Shown here: positions 2,176 through 61,041 of the stretch, in pieces
Layout: every line of letters starts with the position of its first letter
Position numbering within the stretch: the stretch's first letter is position 1
Origin: Macellibacteroides fermentans
Lineage (GTDB): Bacteria; Bacteroidota; Bacteroidia; Bacteroidales; Tannerellaceae
Direction of reading: 5' to 3'
NCBI RefSeq assembly: GCF_013409575.1
Contig: NZ_JACCCY010000003.1
Span: 581,001 to 645,000, forward strand
DNA: 64,000 nucleotides
Notes under the pieces: generated by a model
The model's input: the letters and a program-made list of their open reading frames with translations, nothing else
What the model was told of the DNA's origin: nothing
The model's database searches: none
Made by a program: the position numbers and the translations under genes

Positions 2176-2211
2176 AAAAGTATATACTTTTTGGTGAATA
2201 AGTATATACTT
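2176..2211. repeat. pair of TATATA-centred palindromes
   Basis: A perfect 16-bp palindrome, AAAAGTATATACTTTT, occupies 2176-2191. A second copy of its core, AAGTATATACTT, follows at 2200-2211. The same core recurs upstream of ychF (17211) and rsgA (57303), and a variant lies at 57775. It may be a protein-binding site; the function is unknown. Confidence 0.6.
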
Positions 2212-2392
2212 TTTATTCAAAAAGTACTAACAAATTTTACAACAAGGGATACATGTGACTCGCATGGAATAAGGCTTACACTGCCCAAATAATGGGTAAT
2301 GAAATTAAGATACCCGGTTGCATCAGATTTCGGAACAGGGATACAAAACAGTTGCTGTCCTGCTCAATTCCGACAATTAATTTGCAATAATA

Positions 2393-2546
2393 TCCTTCAC
2401 TTCCTTCACTTTTCAATCTAAACAACTATATGTAAGTCACATAGGTGTCGAACGGATTTAATTATCCTTCACTTTTTCATGAATATCCTTCACTTTTCAG
2501 CTATTTTCCTTCACTTTATGTTTCATTTTACCCTTTATCCTTCATC
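2393..2546 (+). repeat. six copies of a TCCTTCACTTT-type motif
   Basis: Copies start at 2393, 2402, 2465, 2486, 2507 and 2538. Five share TCCTTCACTT and the last is shortened to TCCTTCATC. Several continue into TTTTCA. Spacing between starts is 9, 63, 21, 21 and 31 bp, so this is not a simple tandem repeat and not a CRISPR array. The cluster sits immediately downstream of the AlkD-like gene. Confidence 0.75.
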
Positions 2547-6098: not shown

Positions 6099-7976
6099 AT
6101 GAATTTTAAATATGACGTAATTGTTGTGGGAGCAGGTCATGCCGGCTGTGAAGCCGCCGCTGCTGCTGCTAATATGGGATCCAGGACACTCCTCATCACA
6201 ATGGATATGAACAAAGTCGCACAGATGAGTTGCAATCCGGCTGTGGGTGGTATTGCCAAGGGGCAGATTGTTCGCGAAATAGATGCCCTGGGCGGATATA
6301 TGGGTATTGTTACAGACAATACGGCTATCCAATTCCGAATGCTTAACAGATCGAAAGGTCCGGCCATGTGGAGTCCTCGTGCCCAAAGTGACCGTGCCAA
6401 ATTTATACAGGAATGGCGGGGAATTCTCGAAAACCTCCCCAACCTTTACATGTGGCAGGATACTGTGCGTGAGCTAATCGTAGAAGATGGCAGGGTATGC
6501 GGGGTAAAAACATATATGAATGTAGAGTTCAGGGCAGGTGCGGTAGTGCTTACCAATGGGACTTTTCTCAATGGACTGATCCATATCGGTCGCACACAAT
6601 TAGGAGGAGGACGAATGTCGGAACCTGCTGCATTCGGATTAACCGAACAGCTGGTTAGCTTAGGTATGGAGGCCGGACGAATGAAAACCGGAACACCTGT
6701 ACGAATTGACGGACGCAGTGTTCATTTTGAAGAAACAGTAGAACAAAAAGGAGAAAATGATTTCCATAAATTTTCGTACCTCGACTATAAACCCCGAAAG
6801 TTAAAACAGCTTAGTTGCTGGACGCTTTATACAAACGAATCTGTTCATGATGTACTGAGGAGCGGACTGGCTGATTCACCGATGTACAACGGACAAATCC
6901 AGAGTATAGGTCCGCGTTACTGTCCAAGTATTGAAACAAAGATTGTAACGTTTGCCGACAAAACGCAACACCAGCTTTTCCTCGAGCCTGAAGGGGAGAC
7001 TACTCAGGAATACTACCTGAACGGATTCTCTTCTTCGCTGCCTCTCGACATACAATTACGTGCACTCAGAGAAATTCCGGCATTTAGGGATGTTCACATC
7101 TACCGCCCGGGCTATGCCATCGAATATGACTTCTTTATGCCTACCCAGCTGCATCATTCGCTGGAGACCAAACTCATCAAGAATCTTTTCTTTGCGGGTC
7201 AGATTAATGGCACAACAGGATACGAAGAAGCAGGGGGACAGGGTATCATTGCGGGGATCAATGCCCACATCGGATGCCATGGCGGGGATCCGTTTATCCT
7301 TGGCAGAGACGAGGCATACATTGGGGTTTTAATAGATGATTTGGTAACCAAGGGTGTCGACGAGCCTTATCGTATGTTCACATCACGGGCCGAATACAGA
7401 ATCCTGCTTCGACAAGACGATGCCGATGTGCGGCTTACTCAAAAAGCAGCCGAAATCGGACTTGCCAAACAGGATAGGCTGGATCTGCTGAAAGATAAAG
7501 AGGCCCTGTGTGATATGATAATAAGTTTTGCAAACAACTACTCTATAAAGCCTCAATACATAAATCCTGGATTAGAAGCTTTAGAGGCTACACCCTTGAA
7601 ACAAGGATGTAAACTTATCGACCTTATTACACGTCCTCAATTAAACATTAACAATCTGTCCGAGCTGGTTCCTTCATTCAGACAAGTTCTGGACAAGCTT
7701 CCGGAATCACGTAAGGAAGAAATTATTGAAGCAGCCGAAATACGGATTAAATACGATGGCTACATTCGAAGAGAACAACTGATTGCCGATAAAATAAACA
7801 GACTGGAACATATTAAGATTAAAGGGAAGTTTGTTTACAACGACATTCAATCGCTCTCGACAGAAGCCAGACAGAAGCTTACAAAGATCGATCCGGACAC
7901 CATTGCTCAGGCAAGTCGGATTCCTGGCATTTCTCCAAGCGACATCAACATATTACTGGTTCTTTTAGGAAGATAA
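6099..7976 (+). CDS. mnmG: tRNA uridine-5-carboxymethylaminomethyl modification enzyme MnmG (GidA)
   Basis: At 625 residues it has normal family length. The FAD-binding Rossmann motif VVGAGHAGCEAA is at the N terminus, and the GidA signatures GPRYCPSIETK and GQINGTTGYEEAGGQG are intact. With MnmE it installs the cmnm5 group on U34 of several tRNAs. It begins the long plus-strand housekeeping run (mnmG, ade, uvrC, dtd, MazG-like, deoC). gidA lies near the replication origin in many bacteria, which fits the parS-like site just downstream. Confidence 0.98.
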   Translation: MNFKYDVIVVGAGHAGCEAAAAAANMGSRTLLITMDMNKVAQMSCNPAVGGIAKGQIVREIDALGGYMGIVTDNTAIQFRMLNRSKGPAMWSPRAQSDRAKFIQEWRGILENLPNLYMWQDTVRELIVEDGRVCGVKTYMNVEFRAGAVVLTNGTFLNGLIHIGRTQLGGGRMSEPAAFGLTEQLVSLGMEAGRMKTGTPVRIDGRSVHFEETVEQKGENDFHKFSYLDYKPRKLKQLSCWTLYTNESVHDVLRSGLADSPMYNGQIQSIGPRYCPSIETKIVTFADKTQHQLFLEPEGETTQEYYLNGFSSSLPLDIQLRALREIPAFRDVHIYRPGYAIEYDFFMPTQLHHSLETKLIKNLFFAGQINGTTGYEEAGGQGIIAGINAHIGCHGGDPFILGRDEAYIGVLIDDLVTKGVDEPYRMFTSRAEYRILLRQDDADVRLTQKAAEIGLAKQDRLDLLKDKEALCDMIISFANNYSIKPQYINPGLEALEATPLKQGCKLIDLITRPQLNINNLSELVPSFRQVLDKLPESRKEEIIEAAEIRIKYDGYIRREQLIADKINRLEHIKIKGKFVYNDIQSLSTEARQKLTKIDPDTIAQASRIPGISPSDINILLVLLGR

Positions 7977-7984
7977 TGCCGTTT

Positions 7985-8000
7985 TGTTCCACGTGAAACA
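7985..8000. promoter_or_regulatory. parS-like ParB-binding site
   Basis: The 16-bp sequence TGTTCCACGTGAAACA fits the bacterial parS consensus TGTTNCACGTGAAACA exactly and is a near-perfect palindrome with one asymmetric base. It lies in the 45-bp gap between mnmG and ade, 9 bp after the mnmG stop. parS sites are loaded by ParB and usually cluster around the origin. No ParA or ParB gene is in the window. Confidence 0.8.
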
Positions 8001-8021
8001 CATTGCAAAAAAAAGAAAAAG

Positions 8022-9659
8022 ATGAATAAAACAGACACAAAGTTAGTAAGAGGGAATCTGGTTGATATTATTAGCAGGGAAATCTATGGGGCCGTTGTTA
8101 CCATAAGCGATGGGAAAATATCAAAAACAGAAAGGACTGGGATAGTGGAATCTAACTATATTTTACCTGGATTTATTGATGCGCACGTACACATTGAAAG
8201 CAGTATGTGCACACCTCTTAATTTTGGAGCGGCTGCATGCAAGCACGGAACAATAGGGATCGTTGCAGACCCTCACGAAATTGCGAATGTATTAGGAGTT
8301 GAAGGAATCGATTTTATGGTAAACAATGCAAAAGAGGCTCCGTTTTATTATTGGATCGGAGTTCCTTCTTGTGTACCGGCAACCCCTTTCGAATCTGCAG
8401 GCGCGGTTATCGATGCTGCAACAACAGAAAAATTACTGAAACGCGAGGACCTTCATTTTCTTGCAGAAATGATGAACTATCCCGGCGTATTAAATAAGGA
8501 CCCAGAAGTAATAGGAAAACTAAATGCCGCCAAAAGGGCAAACAAGCCAGTGGACGGACATTTTCCTACCGGAAACGGGAAGGCTTTGGAAGACTATATA
8601 GCCAATGGCATTAGTACAGATCACGAATGTGCCACCCTTGAAGAAGGTCGGGACAGATGCCGTAATGGTATGTTTGTACAGATCAGGGAAGGTAGTGCCG
8701 CAAAGAATTTCAATGCACTTCATCCATTACTGAAGGAATTTCCGGGGAAGGTAATGTTTTGCAGCGACGACATACACCCAAACACACTAATGGAACGACA
8801 CATAAACGGCCTTGTAAAAAGAGCTGTCGGACTTGGGTATGATGTTTTCGACGTATTGCGCGCAGCGTCTTACAATCAGGCAAAGCATTATAGTATTCCG
8901 GCCGGGTTCCTGCAGGTTGGCGACAATGCCGATTTTATCATCACAGAAGATCTTTACAGCTTTACTGTAAAATCGACTTTCGTGAAGGGTGTTTGTATTT
9001 ATGATGGCTCTAATGTATCATTTCCTGCAAAAGAAACCAGTCGCCCCAACCGTTTTGCTATAGATCCCATCACTGTATCCGATTTGGGAATTAAGGCAAT
9101 ATCAGATAAAATGCGGGTAATTGTTTGCAGTGACGGAAACCTGGATACTTTTGAAGAGATTATGGAGCCTACTACAAATGAGGGATATGCCGTATCTGAT
9201 ACTACCAAAGATGTTATTAAAATGGTTGTATTGAACCGATATCAGAAGGCAGCACCGGCTATTGGCTTCATAAAAGGAACTGGGATTAAACGTGGGGCTA
9301 TGGCTCAAAGCATCACTCACGACAGTCATAATATCATTGCAATTGGAACTACAGATCGGGAGTTAGCCGATGCAATTAATGAAGTTATTATAAATAAAGG
9401 GGGTATAAGTGTTGTGAACGGAGAAGAGAAAGAAACTCTTTCGTTGCCTGTAGCAGGGTTGATAAGTCCCCTCCCACTCGATCAAATCGACATTCAATAT
9501 AAAAAACTGGAATCAAAGATGGTGGAGCTGGAAACCACCCTTTCGTCTCTGCAGATGACTTTATCTTTTATGAGCTTGCTAGTAATTCCAGCAATAAAAT
9601 TAGGAGATAAAGGTCTGTTTGATGGTAAAAATTTCCGTTTTACAAACCTGTTTGTATGA
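8022..9659 (+). CDS. ade: adenine deaminase
   Basis: The 545-residue amidohydrolase-superfamily protein has the N-terminal metal-binding motif GFIDAHVHIESSMC characteristic of adenine deaminase, the segment DPHEIANVLG after it, and the C-terminal adenine deaminase domain with a THDSHNIIAIG stretch. It converts adenine to hypoxanthine and ammonia in purine salvage. Its last codons overlap the uvrC start (ATGA), so the two are probably translationally coupled. No purine riboswitch was recognised upstream; the only feature in the leader is the parS-like site. Confidence 0.96.
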   Translation: MNKTDTKLVRGNLVDIISREIYGAVVTISDGKISKTERTGIVESNYILPGFIDAHVHIESSMCTPLNFGAAACKHGTIGIVADPHEIANVLGVEGIDFMVNNAKEAPFYYWIGVPSCVPATPFESAGAVIDAATTEKLLKREDLHFLAEMMNYPGVLNKDPEVIGKLNAAKRANKPVDGHFPTGNGKALEDYIANGISTDHECATLEEGRDRCRNGMFVQIREGSAAKNFNALHPLLKEFPGKVMFCSDDIHPNTLMERHINGLVKRAVGLGYDVFDVLRAASYNQAKHYSIPAGFLQVGDNADFIITEDLYSFTVKSTFVKGVCIYDGSNVSFPAKETSRPNRFAIDPITVSDLGIKAISDKMRVIVCSDGNLDTFEEIMEPTTNEGYAVSDTTKDVIKMVVLNRYQKAAPAIGFIKGTGIKRGAMAQSITHDSHNIIAIGTTDRELADAINEVIINKGGISVVNGEEKETLSLPVAGLISPLPLDQIDIQYKKLESKMVELETTLSSLQMTLSFMSLLVIPAIKLGDKGLFDGKNFRFTNLFV

Positions 9660-24373: not shown

Positions 24374-24428
24374 TGTTTTAACCCCGTTTCCGCTTGTTTT
24401 AAGCATAAAAGTTATCACATTGCACCAA

Positions 24429-24488
24429 CGGGCCCATGGGGACAAATAAACGGGCCCATGGGCGCGATTTAACGTCTCCATGGGCCCG
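24429..24488. repeat. three copies of CGGGCCCATGG
   Basis: Two direct copies (24429-24440 and 24451-24462) and one inverted copy (24478-24488) of CGGGCCCATGG are packed into 60 bp. The direct copy at 24451 and the inverted copy can form a hairpin. The GC-rich words stand out in AT-rich surroundings. The function is unknown. Confidence 0.75.
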
Positions 24489-56157: not shown

Positions 56158-57213
56158 TTAGTAATTGCCTTTGCGTTTCTTTACCTCGTCTACGATTTTA
56201 GAAAACGATTTCTCCTGTTTTCTTTTCTCGTGGACAGAAGCCGTATAATGCCAGGCTTCCCTGCGGAGCTTAAGATAGCTTTCGTATACGCCACGGTCTA
56301 ATTCTCCGGTATTGACCGCTTCCAGTACGGCACAACCCTTTTCATTTACATGCTTACAATCTTTAAACCGGCACTTGCCCTCATAAGCTGAGATATCTAA
56401 TATTTCTGAGAGGTTATCCGTATTATCGTTTGTAACACCGAAAAGTTTTACCCCCGGAGTGTCGATCAGCACACCGGAACCCGGCAACAGTACCATTTCC
56501 CTCCGTGTAGAAGTGTGCTTTCCTTTACCTGTAGAATCACTGATTGTTCCTGTCTGCAGAAGTTCCCTGCCGCAAAGAGCATTGATCAGAGTACTTTTCC
56601 CCACGCCGGACATGCCCGTAAATACGACGGTTTCGCCTGTATGGATTGTTTCACGCAACATATCGATACTTTCAGGCAATTGCGTACTGGTATAGAAAAC
56701 CGGCATCTTATGGGAAAGATGTTTTATCGCTTTATTTATCTCATCGGCATCAAATCCTAAATCTGTTTTCGTCAGGATCAATATCGGCTGAATACTTTCG
56801 GATGAAAGTTGCAGCATGAAGCGCTCAATACGGCGTACATTGAAGCTGTTATCCAGACTTTGAACTATAAATGCTTTGTCAACATGGGATGCTATAGCCT
56901 GTCTTTCCGATACGGAACCGCTTTTAAGGCGATACAGGGTTTTCTTCCGAGGTAGCATAGCCAGAATGATTCCCTTGTCCGTGTCTGTTACCTGGAAAAT
57001 AACCCAGTCGCCTGTACAGGGATAATCGGATACATCCCTCCCGTAGAGCATATTCCCTGTCATTTCGCAGGAATAGTGCCCTGTTTCAGAAATTACCTCA
57101 TAACAGGTTTTATGAGTAACTGTTATCCTTCCGTGAATGAATTCTTTGTAACCGGAATTTTGTTTTTGTTGGAAAAGCTCGTCATTCCAACCATATAAAT
57201 GTAAATCGTGCAT
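56158..57213 (-). CDS. rsgA: ribosome small subunit-dependent GTPase A (RsgA/YloQ type)
   Basis: This circularly permuted GTPase has an N-terminal OB-fold, then the guanine-specificity motif ILTKTDLG before the P-loop FTGMSGVGKSTLINALCG and the switch DTPGVKLFG. A C-terminal zinc motif follows (CRFKDCKHVNEKGCAV: Cys, Cys, His, Cys). It helps late 30S subunit assembly. I placed the start at MHDLHLYGWND, where relatives begin; an ATG at 57282 would add 23 residues (374 in all). The variant N terminus is closer to the YloQ-like paralogues than to E. coli RsgA. Confidence 0.92.
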   Translation of the reverse strand: MHDLHLYGWNDELFQQKQNSGYKEFIHGRITVTHKTCYEVISETGHYSCEMTGNMLYGRDVSDYPCTGDWVIFQVTDTDKGIILAMLPRKKTLYRLKSGSVSERQAIASHVDKAFIVQSLDNSFNVRRIERFMLQLSSESIQPILILTKTDLGFDADEINKAIKHLSHKMPVFYTSTQLPESIDMLRETIHTGETVVFTGMSGVGKSTLINALCGRELLQTGTISDSTGKGKHTSTRREMVLLPGSGVLIDTPGVKLFGVTNDNTDNLSEILDISAYEGKCRFKDCKHVNEKGCAVLEAVNTGELDRGVYESYLKLRREAWHYTASVHEKRKQEKSFSKIVDEVKKRKGNY

Positions 57214-57302
57214 TGTTTTGATCTTTAAATAAGGAGACTCTATGGAGGCAATCTCCCTGATTGTTGTTAATTTTCTTCCCAAAAGTCATTTCTTGACAGT
57301 GT

Positions 57303-57437: not shown

Positions 57438-57670
57438 TTGTTACACCAAATCCGATTTAAACATTGTAGTCATGCCACAAAAATACATAATCTTTTGTAT
57501 TTCAGAAAATTTGAGTCTGATAAGCGCGCTGAATTTTCAAAAGAAAGTTACAAATTAAAAGAGTCGTCCATCGGGTGTAAATTATTTTAGGCTGGATTTT
57601 GTGAAAGTGTCCAGACTATCAGTAGAATCATTTCTTATATGTCTGGTTTCCAACACCCCTTCTACGTAAA

Positions 57671-57731
57671 TTTTCCCTTAAGTGAAAAAAAAACTTTACT
57701 TAAGGAAAAAATAAATTATACTTAAGGAAAG
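57671..57731. repeat. three copies of an ACTTAAGGAAA motif, one inverted
   Basis: The first copy is inverted (TTTTCCCTTAAGTGAAA at 57671-57687). Two direct copies follow (57694-57710 and 57717-57731). All share the core ACTTAAGG followed by A residues. Confidence 0.7.
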
Positions 57732-57736
57732 TTTTG

Positions 57737-57770
57737 TCGGTACTTTTCTTCTCATTTATCGGTACTTTTT
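57737..57770 (+). repeat. two copies of TCGGTACTTTT
   Basis: Direct copies at 57737-57748 and 57759-57770 have starts 22 bp apart, the same period as the next array. Confidence 0.65.
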
Positions 57771-57774
57771 ATCT

Positions 57775-57792
57775 AAAATGTATATACATTTT
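57775..57792. repeat. 18-bp perfect palindrome
   Basis: AAAATGTATATACATTTT is a perfect palindrome and a variant of the TATATA-centred palindrome at 2176-2191. Confidence 0.65.
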
Positions 57793-57819
57793 GGATGATT
57801 TATTATGACTTTCGCTGTT

Positions 57820-57906
57820 CAAAGATATAGGAACTGTTTTCCAAAGATATATGAATTGTTTCTCAAAGATATAGGAACTGTTTTCCAATCATATAGGAAT
57901 GAAAAG
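57820..57906 (+). repeat. 22-bp tandem repeat, about 3.5 units
   Basis: Units begin at 57820, 57842, 57864 and 57886. Units 1 and 3 appear identical (CAAAGATATAGGAACTG...). Unit 2 differs at a few bases, and unit 4 keeps only the first half before diverging. The units are directly abutting, with no spacers. Confidence 0.85.
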
Positions 57907-57970
57907 CCAAACAGGTAAGGAAATAAAAACAAATTATACGCAGCCAATTGGCAGGACGCTTACCATCCGT

Positions 57971-58070
57971 ATGACAGATGACAGACGGCATGATAGATGA
58001 AAACGGGATCTGTCATGTTTTTTATATTTGAATATCAGTCTATTAAACTCAAAAAATGAGAGATGACAGA
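57971..58070. repeat. ATGACAGA-type repeats with terminator-like hairpin
   Basis: ATGACAGAT at 57971 is followed by a direct GACAGACG, a diverged ATGATAGATGA, an inverted ATCTGTCAT (58008-58016) with a T-run after it, and another GATGACAGATG near 58062. The first and inverted copies can form a stem with a long loop. Confidence 0.55.
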
Positions 58071-58172
58071 TGTTTTTGAAAAAAATCGGTTTTAATGGAG
58101 CGGAAAGGATAAAATTAAGCATCAATCTTGAAGCATTAGCCATGATTAGGGATAGTGAGTACTTTTTTTTCT

Positions 58173-58180
58173 TATTTTTG
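58173..58180 (+). promoter_or_regulatory. -7 element of leuS
   Basis: TATTTTTG matches TAnnTTTG and lies 71 bp upstream of the leuS start. Confidence 0.5.
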
Positions 58181-58251
58181 CACAGAAATTCAAGGATTTG
58201 ATTTTTAAACACATAGTTACCGTCGATAATAATAAAAAATTAGATACTGAC

Positions 58252-61041
58252 ATGGAATACAATTTCAGAGAGATTGAGAAGAAATGGCGCGAATATTGGA
58301 TTGCCAATAATGTTTACAAAGTGGTGGAAGACGAAAGTAAACCCAAATACTATGTATTGGATATGTTTCCTTATCCTTCGGGAGCAGGTTTACATGTAGG
58401 ACATCCGCTGGGATATATTGCTTCCGATATCTATTCACGCTACAAACGTCTGCAGGGTTTCAATGTATTGCATCCCATGGGATATGATGCCTACGGATTA
58501 CCGGCCGAACAATATGCCATTCAAACTGGTCAGCATCCCGAAGTAACTACTAAAAACAACATCGCCCGCTACCGCGAGCAGATGGACAAAATAGGTTTCA
58601 GCTATGACTGGAGCCGCGAAGTACGCACTTGCGAACCTATTTATTATAAATGGACGCAGTGGGCTTTTATTAAAATGTTTAACAGCTATTACGATAACGC
58701 TTTACAAAAAGCAATGCCTATCGCTACACTGGAAGCTGCTTTTGCTGCAAATGGTACCGAAGGTGTGCAGGCTGCCTGCGGCGAAGAACTTTCTTTTACA
58801 GCTGCCGAATGGAATGCCAAGCCGGAAAAGGAAAAACAGGCTATCCTGCTTAATTACCGTATTGCCTACCTGGGCGACACCATGGTTAACTGGTGTCCTA
58901 AATTGGGTACCGTGCTTGCCAACGATGAGGTGAGCGAAGGTCTTTCGGTTCGCGGAGGTTACCCGGTAGAACAAAAGGTGATGCGTCAATGGTGTTTACG
59001 TGTATCTGCCTATGCGCAGCGATTGCTGGATGGTCTGGACGAGATCGATTGGACCGAATCGCTGAAAGAGACTCAGAAAAACTGGATAGGTCGTTCCGAA
59101 GGTGCGGAGATGAACTTCAAGGTAAAAGATTCGGATCTTTCGTTTACCGTATTTACCACCCGTGCCGATACGATTTATGGTGTTACCTTTATGGTGCTGG
59201 CTCCGGAAAGTGAGCTTACCGATCTGCTTACTACAGATTCGCAGCGTGCGGAAGTTACCAATTATGTGCAGGCTACCAAGAAGAAAACGGAACGCGAACG
59301 TATTGCCGACCGTCGTGTAACGGGGGTATTTTCAGGTTCGTATGCCATCAATCCTATTACCGAAGAGGCTATTCCGGTATGGATAAGCGATTATGTACTT
59401 GCAGGTTACGGTACCGGTGCCATTATGGCTGTACCGGCGCACGACAGCCGCGACTATGCTTTTGCCAAACATTTCGATCTGCCTATCATTCCTTTGATTG
59501 AAGGTGCCGATGTTTCTGAAGAGAGTCTGGATGCCAAAGAGGGTATCATGATGAACTCTCCGCGTGCTGGTCACGAGATAGAAGGCGGACTGGTGCTGAA
59601 CGGCTTGCAGGTGAAAGAGGCTATTGCAAAGACAAAGGCTTATATCGCCGAAAAGGGAATTGGCCGGGTAAAGGTTAACTTCCGTTTGCGCGATGCTATT
59701 TTTAGCCGCCAGCGTTATTGGGGCGAGCCGTTCCCTGTTTACTATAAAGATGGCATGCCTTACATGCTGGATGAATCCAAACTTCCATTGGAATTGCCCG
59801 AAGTGGATAAGTTCTTACCTACCGAACAGGGTGAACCGCCTCTGGGACGTGCCAAAAACTGGGTGTCCGACGAAGGCTTCCCATTGGAATTGTGTACCAT
59901 GCCTGGTTTTGCCGGATCGTCTGCATACTATTTGCGTTACATGGATCCACAAAACACCGAAGCGCTGGTTTCCAAAAAAGCCAACGAGTACTGGCGTAAC
60001 GTGGACTTATATATAGGTGGTACGGAACATGCCACAGGTCACCTTATCTACAGCCGTTTCTGGAATAAATTCCTTTACGACCTGGGTGTTGCTTGCGAAA
60101 ACGAACCTTTCAAAAAGCTTATCAACCAGGGTATGATTCAGGGTCGTTCTAATTTCGTATATCGTATCAAGGAGACCAACACCTTTGTTTCGTTGAACCT
60201 AAAAGATCAGTACGAAGTTACTCCTATCCACGTGGATGTTAATATTGTGAGCAACGATGTGTTGGATATCGAAGCATTCAGAAACTGGAATCCGGAATAC
60301 AAGACGGCCGAATTCATTCTGGAAGATGGCAAGTATGTATGTGGATGGGCGGTTGAGAAGATGTCTAAATCCATGTTCAACGTGGTTAATCCGGATGTGA
60401 TTGTTGAAAAATTTGGTGCCGATACGCTTCGCTTATACGAAATGTTCCTCGGACCGCTTGAGCAGTCGAAGCCCTGGGATACCAACGGTATTGATGGTGT
60501 ACACAGATTCTTACGCAAGTTGTGGGGGCTGTTCTATACCAACGACGATCAGCTGCAGGTTACTAATGAAGAACCTTCTGCCGAAGAGTTGAAGTCTCTG
60601 CACAAACTTATCAAGAAGATCTCTTTCGATATAGAACATTTCTCGTTCAATACTTCGGTAAGTGCATTCATGATCTGTGTGAACGAACTGAGTGCTCTGA
60701 AGTGTCGTAAGCGTGCTATACTGGAAAAGCTTATTACTTTGCTTGCCCCCTTCGCACCGCATACCGCAGAAGAGCTATGGCATGTATTAGGTAACGAGTC
60801 GACGGTTTGCGATGCTCAATGGCCCGTTTGTAACGAAGCTTATCTGGTAGAAAATACGGCTACTTACGTGGTTTCATTTAACGGAAAAGCTCGTTTCAAC
60901 ATCGAACTGCCGGCTGATATGCCGGCCGGCGAAGTGGAAAAGATGGCTCTTGCCCATGAAAGCGCAGCCAAATGGGTGGAAGGTAAAACTCCCAAAAAAG
61001 TCATCGTGGTTCCGAAGAAGATTGTTAATATTGTAATCTGA
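58252..61041 (+). CDS. leuS: leucyl-tRNA synthetase
   Basis: The 929-residue class I synthetase begins [16 protein letters not shown]. The HIGH-type motif is [15 protein letters not shown] (His48 and His51) and the KMSKS motif is at residues 703-707. Between them lie the CP1 editing domain ([20 protein letters not shown], with the conserved Asp of the editing pocket) and the zinc/leucine-specific region. An anticodon-binding domain is at the C terminus. It charges tRNA-Leu. The frame is open 18 codons upstream, but the ATG at 58252 is where the family starts. It is monocistronic with a terminator. Confidence 0.98.

Follow-up and report, generated by a model that had tools for sequence, protein, structure and literature searches.

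We analysed a 64,000-nucleotide window of the Macellibacteroides fermentans genome, concentrating on the gap between rsgA and leuS. An RsgA-type GTPase gene (ORF 56158-57282, minus strand) bounds this gap on one side, and leuS, encoding a leucyl-tRNA synthetase whose nearest named record is that of a Parabacteroides sp. MAG (93%), begins on the other with an ATG at 58252 on the plus strand. The sole mechanically called ORF inside the gap, 92 aa at 57934-58212 on the minus strand, is without a Pfam match. An earlier note on this DNA had described four short words following one another at 57671-58070, and we found all of them in place: CTTAAG starts at 57677, 57699 and 57721, TCGGTACTTTT at 57737 and 57759, four units of the CAAAGATATAGG type at 57820, 57842, 57864 and 57886, and ATGACAGA at 57971, 57978 and 58063, stepping 7 bp and then 85. 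Overlooked at that time was that the start-to-start step is exactly 22 bp for CTTAAG, TCGGTACTTTT and CAAAGATATAGG. Read by eye, word centres across the blocks of the gap step 22, 22, 18, 22, 20, 44, 22, 22 and 22 bp; since the steps from block to block are 18 and 20 bp, the 22-bp lattice is held inside blocks and slips between them.

We compared the gap with itself over periods 10-60, and the best self-match sum was 54.0, at period 22, against a maximum of 11.8 in first-order Markov shuffles, of which 0/500 reached 54.0. Three separate period-22 segments occur in the gap, and the same was seen in 0/1000 shuffles. The word-by-word construction is therefore far above what such shuffles give, and chance in AT-rich DNA is ruled out as its source. 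The view that this is no simple microsatellite was borne out, as was the exclusion of a CRISPR array, in which near-identical repeats alternate with unique spacers of similar length; here, cores of 6-12 bp occur in varied copies and there are several words per gap. At gathering score, Rfam had no match in the window, and across 14 further loci it matched just two tRNAs and one Bacteroidales-1 RNA, leading us to reject a known structured RNA. A phage or plasmid record as the source of the gap was likewise rejected, as a 551-bp gap query (blastn, E 0.01) matched none of 50,697 phage records and none of 72,556 plasmid records. The features of the window are collected in Table 1.

Table 1. Repeat features in the studied gap and elsewhere in the 64-kb window.
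Feature	Position	Strand	Basis
Leader piece, accompanies arrays at other loci (L044, L045, L049)	57568..57650	+	sequence matches
CTTAAG array, three units at 22 bp	57677..57730	+	word positions, genome-wide pair spacing
TCGGTACTTTT, two units at 22 bp	57737..57769	+	word positions
Single GTATATAC palindrome	57780..57787	no strand	sequence reading
CAAAGATATAGG array, four units at 22 bp, 44-bp superperiod	57820..57899	+	TRF
TGACAG unit, dispersed ~105-bp repeat with direct and inverted TGACAGATG words	57965..58086	+	pattern search
Second gap built in this way, with GTATATAC repeated at 22 bp	2176..2226	no strand	period scan
CCTTCACTTT sites in the second gap, three tandem at 21 bp	2393..2517	+	pattern search
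Third period-22 array, GGGCCCATGGG word, between convergent ORFs	24427..24488	no strand	period scan

TRF scored the CAAAGATATAGG array 118 at period 22 and 132 at period 44. The GGGCCCATGGG array has a folding z of -6.3, and the GTATATAC word also makes 22-bp arrays elsewhere in the host genome and in the congener G027. A search for other gaps built alike, which the earlier note had proposed, thus found them in the same window, at other sites of the host genome and in two congeneric genomes.

The array part of a 621-bp gap query recurs at three places in the host genome, with 96, 85 and 80% identity (L042, L043 and L044, respectively), and at all three the modules stand in the same order as in the gap. 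A query with the leader of L044 gave nine matches in the host genome, counting the query itself and the studied gap. These array-bearing elements are multi-copy and intergenic, with flanks unrelated between copies, and relatives of the gap's modules are present in the congeneric genomes G026 and G027. Since the composite turns up again at other genomic sites and in both congeners, the gap is put together, mosaic-like, from dispersed intergenic elements. The fourth word, ATGACAGA, belongs to a separate dispersed repeat of ~105 bp, the TGACAG unit, which had 26 pattern hits in the host genome (at most two mismatches) against 0 for a reversed control; similar DNA was seen in other genera of the family. 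The words of the gap are consequently not the unrelated families for which they had been taken, given that three of them have a common 22-bp step in dispersed elements and the fourth comes from another dispersed repeat. In the leuS gap of G027 the TGACAG unit is kept, and the side that carries the arrays in the host genome holds transposase-like coding DNA, putatively IS66-like (L046, 7330-8400), which immediately precedes the TGACAG unit on the upstream side of leuS. At L042 a candidate group II intron, at about 7173-9060, splits a TGACAG unit, the remainder of which resumes at 9060.

Between the gap and its copies, the cores are better conserved than the spacers. Identities were 62/62 in cores and 123/158 in spacers against L043, 61/62 and 112/158 against L044, and 55/56 and 93/142 against L045 (Fisher p 3e-6 to 9e-8), the cores having been chosen by eye from the studied gap and gene conversion being included in the counts. 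Against L042, the closest copy, the values were 55/56 and 139/153 (p 0.054). Gene conversion could contribute to the difference between core and spacer.

We then looked for period-22 arrays in the non-coding DNA of other places and other genomes. The host-genome sample comprised the non-coding DNA of 444 kb in 20 pieces, piece L067 being left out because it holds the L043 copy. Non-coding DNA was set with a crude ORF caller of at least 80 aa (90 aa for the counts of gap locations), so some counted gaps hold small genes. Period 22 accounted for 14 segments in the host genome, where other periods (12-80) averaged 0.55 and shuffles 0.25. There were 10 against 0.86 in G027 and 11 against 0.30 in G035, with weak signals in G069 (3 against 0.38) and G070 (1 against 0.25). 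A further sample consisted of 80 leuS loci from named records, grouped by record titles and match lengths. The 20 loci grouped as Bacteroides/Phocaeicola had 17 period-22 segments against 0.59, a figure to which five loci titled Bacteroidales, Bacteroidaceae or Bacteroidetes (L139, L140, L160, L161 and L163) give 4/17 hits. The 14 grouped as Tannerellaceae had 11 segments at period 21 and 6 at 22, against 1.14, and the remaining 46 loci, among which L154, L185 and L191 are titled Bacteroides, had 5 at period 22 against 1.3. In the leuS gap proper, a period-22 segment was present at 8/80 loci (at one of them just at the score threshold), with words that differ on inspection. The leuS gap of a Tannerellaceae MAG (L170, around 3793) carries a strong 21-bp array (AGGAATTCCTAGCTCGGAGCC).

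Controls outside the order (20 pieces, taken from nine genomes within the class or phylum, and 50 kb of E. coli) had no period-22 peak, with 4 segments at 22 (one strong) and 7 each at 24 and 33. One control genome of another order carries a strong period-22 direct array of a GGTTGAG word (G124, L222, 19509; score 33). Within the order, 20 pieces, each from a different genome, had 5 segments at period 22; three of these were in the single genome of the same family, and the other 19 pieces, from the order's other families, had no period-22 peak. The 22-bp rule thus seems to belong to the Tannerellaceae and Bacteroidaceae, a boundary drawn from these samples. Within the host-genome sample, a period-22 array was present in 9/62 gaps of at least 200 bp and in one shorter gap. 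All gap types were represented, with no clear promoter preference at these small counts, and the flanking genes were, by eye, ordinary and unrelated. One array in the collection, of the GGACCATGGTCC word at period 22, lies at 18023-18103 of L065, and an ORF about 440 bp from it begins, judging from a motif, like a putative Cas9.

The exactness of the step was examined word by word. Among CTTAAG pairs stepping 10-40 bp, 18/23 in the host genome (G000) do so at exactly 22 bp, as do 9/21 in G027 and 3/9 in G026. The pair totals in G000, G026 and G027 (23, 9 and 21) are not above those of a reversed-word control (18, 13 and 18), and it is the spacing alone that is unusual. Across 118 other genomes of the order, a draw outside which the congeners G027 (9) and G026 (3) lie, CTTAAG at 22 bp occurred at most once in each, against 18 in the host genome. 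A control pattern of GAATTC, 16 bases and GAATTC had 0-4 hits in the remaining genomes and 31 in G253, of the same order, which is possibly another 22-bp vocabulary. For CCTTCACTTT pairs with allowed gaps of 0-30 bp, 36/39 across three genomes step 21 bp (15/17 in the host genome alone) and 3/39 step 31 bp, with no other step within the allowed range. Steps of 21-22 bp and of 31 bp are near two and three helical turns, respectively, and suggest sites that share a single DNA face. Two papers describe a period close to 11 bp in the DNA of bacteria (PMC516772, PMC4132750).

The step is shared, and the words are mostly not. For 32/50 arrays, the consensus word matches that of no other array. The rest form seven small clusters, three of which cross lineages, and there were 14 matching pairs of array words where about three are expected by chance. 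Perfect-palindrome pairs of different words on a common lattice, outside the family described below, were in modest excess only, at 11 against a mean of 5.6 (sd 2.8), and a distance of 38 reached 15. A dyad score of at least 5/6 was reached by 58% of 50 period-22 arrays against 25% in shuffles, and a score of 6/6 by 20% against 1.5%; for 85 arrays of other periods, 38% scored at least 5/6 against 24%.

The clearest case of construction by whole units is family H, a dispersed element that we traced from the array L081 and that has the ends TATTCGTTTG...CAAACGAATA. With one mismatch allowed, the end pattern had 35 and 34 hits on the two strands of the host genome (controls 2 and 1), 12 and 11 in G026 (controls 3 and 4) and 26 and 27 in G027 (controls 5 and 3). 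Among the hits listed, all 52/52 pairs of ends within 1000 bp of each other in the three genomes face inward, 77 bp apart in 44 and 99 bp apart in 8, with no other distance between facing ends in that range. In the loci collected, the 36 non-nested elements (47 raw matches, minus 10 nested and one of 136 bp) measure 94 bp (30) or 116 bp (6). The length is thus always 4 or 5 whole 22-bp units, and the earlier expectation that words change as units holds for this family. It holds as well for an apparently orthologous pair, L322 in G027 and L345 in G026, which have homologous flanks on both sides and the same length but differ in words 2 and 3.

In four-unit H elements, the core CA..T is nearly invariant at every unit centre and the spacers vary; the search pattern requires CA..TG in the first and last unit, and units 2 and 3, which are free of the pattern, share this invariance. 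Perfect palindromes make up 107/150 centre words, with three interchangeable centres (CATATG 49, CAATTG 32, CAGCTG 26); a CG centre does not occur among them. The word of unit 1 returns in unit 3 in 18/30 elements (6.4 expected), and that of unit 2 returns in unit 4 in 13/30 (5.3 expected); sharing between the other unit pairs is at chance. In an axis scan the two best mirror axes coincided exactly with the centre of unit 3 and that of unit 2, followed by the element centre, and the best direct shift was 44, not 22. In 21/36 copies the left and right outer parts are alike in type. The outer word, 22 bp beyond the end core, is CTTAAG or a close variant in 9/36 copies, on both sides in 7, and by eye six copies have the exact word on at least one side. 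Since CTTAAG is the outer lattice word in some copies, it is a brick of the H system. A Bacteroidales-1 (6S-like) RNA lies a few hundred bases from an H element at L317 (1856-2031).

Several described systems resemble these arrays in part. REP and BIME sequences with their RAYT (Y1) transposases are clustered intergenic palindromic repeats, regularly spaced and of alternating orientation. The arrays here are likewise intergenic, palindromic and clustered, but their units are 22 bp with lineage-specific words. A Y1_Tnp transposase of the TnpA_REP type was found in 0/3 genus genomes by a search that matched in 5/14 control genomes, in agreement with the earlier view that no REP element is involved, and we rejected a helper of the REP/RAYT or IS200/IS605 type for the host and two congeners. 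The Correia, RUP and BOX elements of Neisseria and Streptococcus type are short, non-coding and dispersed, some of them modular, and they differ from the present elements, which have a 22-bp lattice and quantised lengths. R6K iterons and the ends of Tn7 and Mu are protein-binding repeats with steps of about 21-22 bp, each system with its own word; unlike these, many array words here are palindromes and there are many arrays per genome. Inspection by eye of the ORFs flanking the period-scan arrays revealed no rep or transposase gene.

The nearest described system is a MITE of Porphyromonas gingivalis, a species of the same order as the host. As described, this element, BrickBuilt, is dispersed, intergenic and multi-copy, with a tandem 23-nt minisatellite body of one unit sequence that gains and loses whole units, leader and tail parts flanking the body, and terminal inverted repeats like those of the IS5-family ISPg1/ISPg9 (PMC4596501). 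The elements here share with that description the dispersal, intergenic position, copy number, whole-unit changes, leader and tail, with 22 bp in place of 23 nt. They depart from it in having many words on one step and several word blocks per gap, and in having variable spacers between cores at a step of 22 bp (21 for CCTTCACTTT), where BrickBuilt has a 23-nt repeat without spacers. Searches of open-access literature, as distinct from subscription papers and preprints, turned up no account of arrays like these for Bacteroides or Parabacteroides.

We tentatively favor, at a little under an even chance, the reading of the gap as a patchwork of mobile, non-coding, MITE-like elements that are dispersed in the genome and have their 22-bp lattice set by dimeric proteins sitting side by side. 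It builds on the spacing, the dispersal, the whole-unit length steps of one family, the finding that cores are better conserved than spacers, and the mirror symmetry that many arrays show. The lattice would correspond to two turns of the DNA helix, and the cores would be recognition sites of dimeric, sequence-specific DNA-binding proteins, perhaps a transposase or proteins of nucleoid or regulator type. Neighboring proteins bound along a single face of the supercoiled DNA would fix the 22-bp step, leaving the word free to drift or be swapped while the step stays. Units may be duplicated, lost and inverted through copying, new ones arising where palindromes are miscopied, and whole elements may spread into new gaps. 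Binding of adjacent proteins is preferred because helical spacing is the one property common to folding and non-folding, palindromic and direct arrays. No trans-acting or binding protein for the arrays was identified, which speaks against this reading, as do the lack of a clear promoter preference at small counts, the slips between blocks, the modest excess of different words on one lattice outside H, CTTAAG pair totals no higher than those of the control, the weak signals in G069 and G070, the Tannerellaceae peak at 21 and the G124 array. In addition, 24/32 folded arrays form long hairpins, of which protein binding has no need, and the covariation in H is mirror-like across unit centres, spacers included, as hairpin copying would give.

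These last observations bear on an alternative that we consider less probable but a serious rival, in which the arrays would arise incidentally when templates switch at short palindromes, a strand copying its last ~22 bp in reverse to leave palindromic junctions and units of alternating orientation, as neutral or selfish DNA. The mirror axes of H at the centres of units 3 and 2, its best direct shift of 44 and its word sharing limited to units 1/3 and 2/4 are all as fold-back copying would have it. Distances between strong axes, moreover, are multiples of 11 bp in 32/34 cases, drawn from the 13/32 arrays with at least two strong axes, and in G027 the left end of a second dispersed element, P, has been reverse-copied over a repeat unit kept in the apparently orthologous G026 copy (L274 compared with L289). 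The mirror covariation of H and the reverse copying in P suggest that fold-back copying takes part. It leaves unexplained, however, the 22-bp step common to unrelated words and species, the direct arrays without mirror symmetry (57820-57899 and CCTTCACTTT) and the conservation of cores over spacers. The hairpins might instead act as folded RNA or single-stranded DNA, in transcript ends, RNA processing or single-strand recombination, also a serious rival although we regard it as unlikely. Of the 32 arrays folded, which were hand-picked from period-scan lists, 24 had z of -3.3 or below against dinucleotide shuffles, L081 has a 29-bp perfect stem (z -10.6), H covaries across two hairpin axes, and TGACAG units lie in convergent gaps in 10/26 cases against 15/62 for gaps of at least 200 bp in the host-genome sample. 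Yet any tandem array of palindromes will fold simply because of how it is built, the covarying axes of H are mutually exclusive within a molecule, and the two pieces of the studied gap fold poorly (z -1.92 and, for 57781-57905, +0.57); nor was there an Rfam family, or a Y1 transposase in the three genus genomes.

That the arrays are operators for regulators of neighboring genes, such as LytTR-type response regulators, is in our judgment very unlikely. LytTR sites are direct repeats about 21-22 bp apart, a spacing that fits; the host genome has 11 LytTR matches, and one CTTAAG pair stands just downstream of a LytTR ORF. That pair sits between two gene ends and not at a promoter, and nothing beyond it came of the LytTR idea, which had been drawn from the spacing. 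Many of the words are palindromes rather than direct repeats, and the ordinary, unrelated flanking genes and the spread over all gap types speak against operators. Promoter-linked operators as the general case were rejected on the lack of promoter preference, small as the counts are.

The scattered families obeying the 22-bp rule, which returns with other words between the genes of related gut-type bacteria, suggest an undescribed layout of protein-binding or self-copying DNA. A wider proposition, which we offer as speculative and hold to be less probable, is that Bacteroidaceae and Tannerellaceae have an unrecognised intergenic grammar of dyad words on an 11/22-bp lattice, kept by fast-diversifying cooperative DNA-binding proteins or by dedicated copying, with the spacing conserved and the vocabulary replaced in each lineage. 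Should the lattice reflect biology rather than an artefact of copying, a considerable part of the long intergenic gaps of common gut bacteria would carry unannotated, quickly changing sites or folds, and a lattice of changing words would explain why such gaps look like junk to annotation. The causes of an exact 22-bp step for unrelated words, and of a grammar kept while its words are replaced, become testable questions.

Element P is about 340 bp long and was aligned in eight copies from G026 and G027 (L270, L274, L276, L286, L271, L280, L282 and L288), with sharp ends, unrelated flanks and no clear inverted ends. Several copies start at, or a few bases from, the apparent stop codon of the upstream gene, and the element contains a terminator-like hairpin and two lattice word families.
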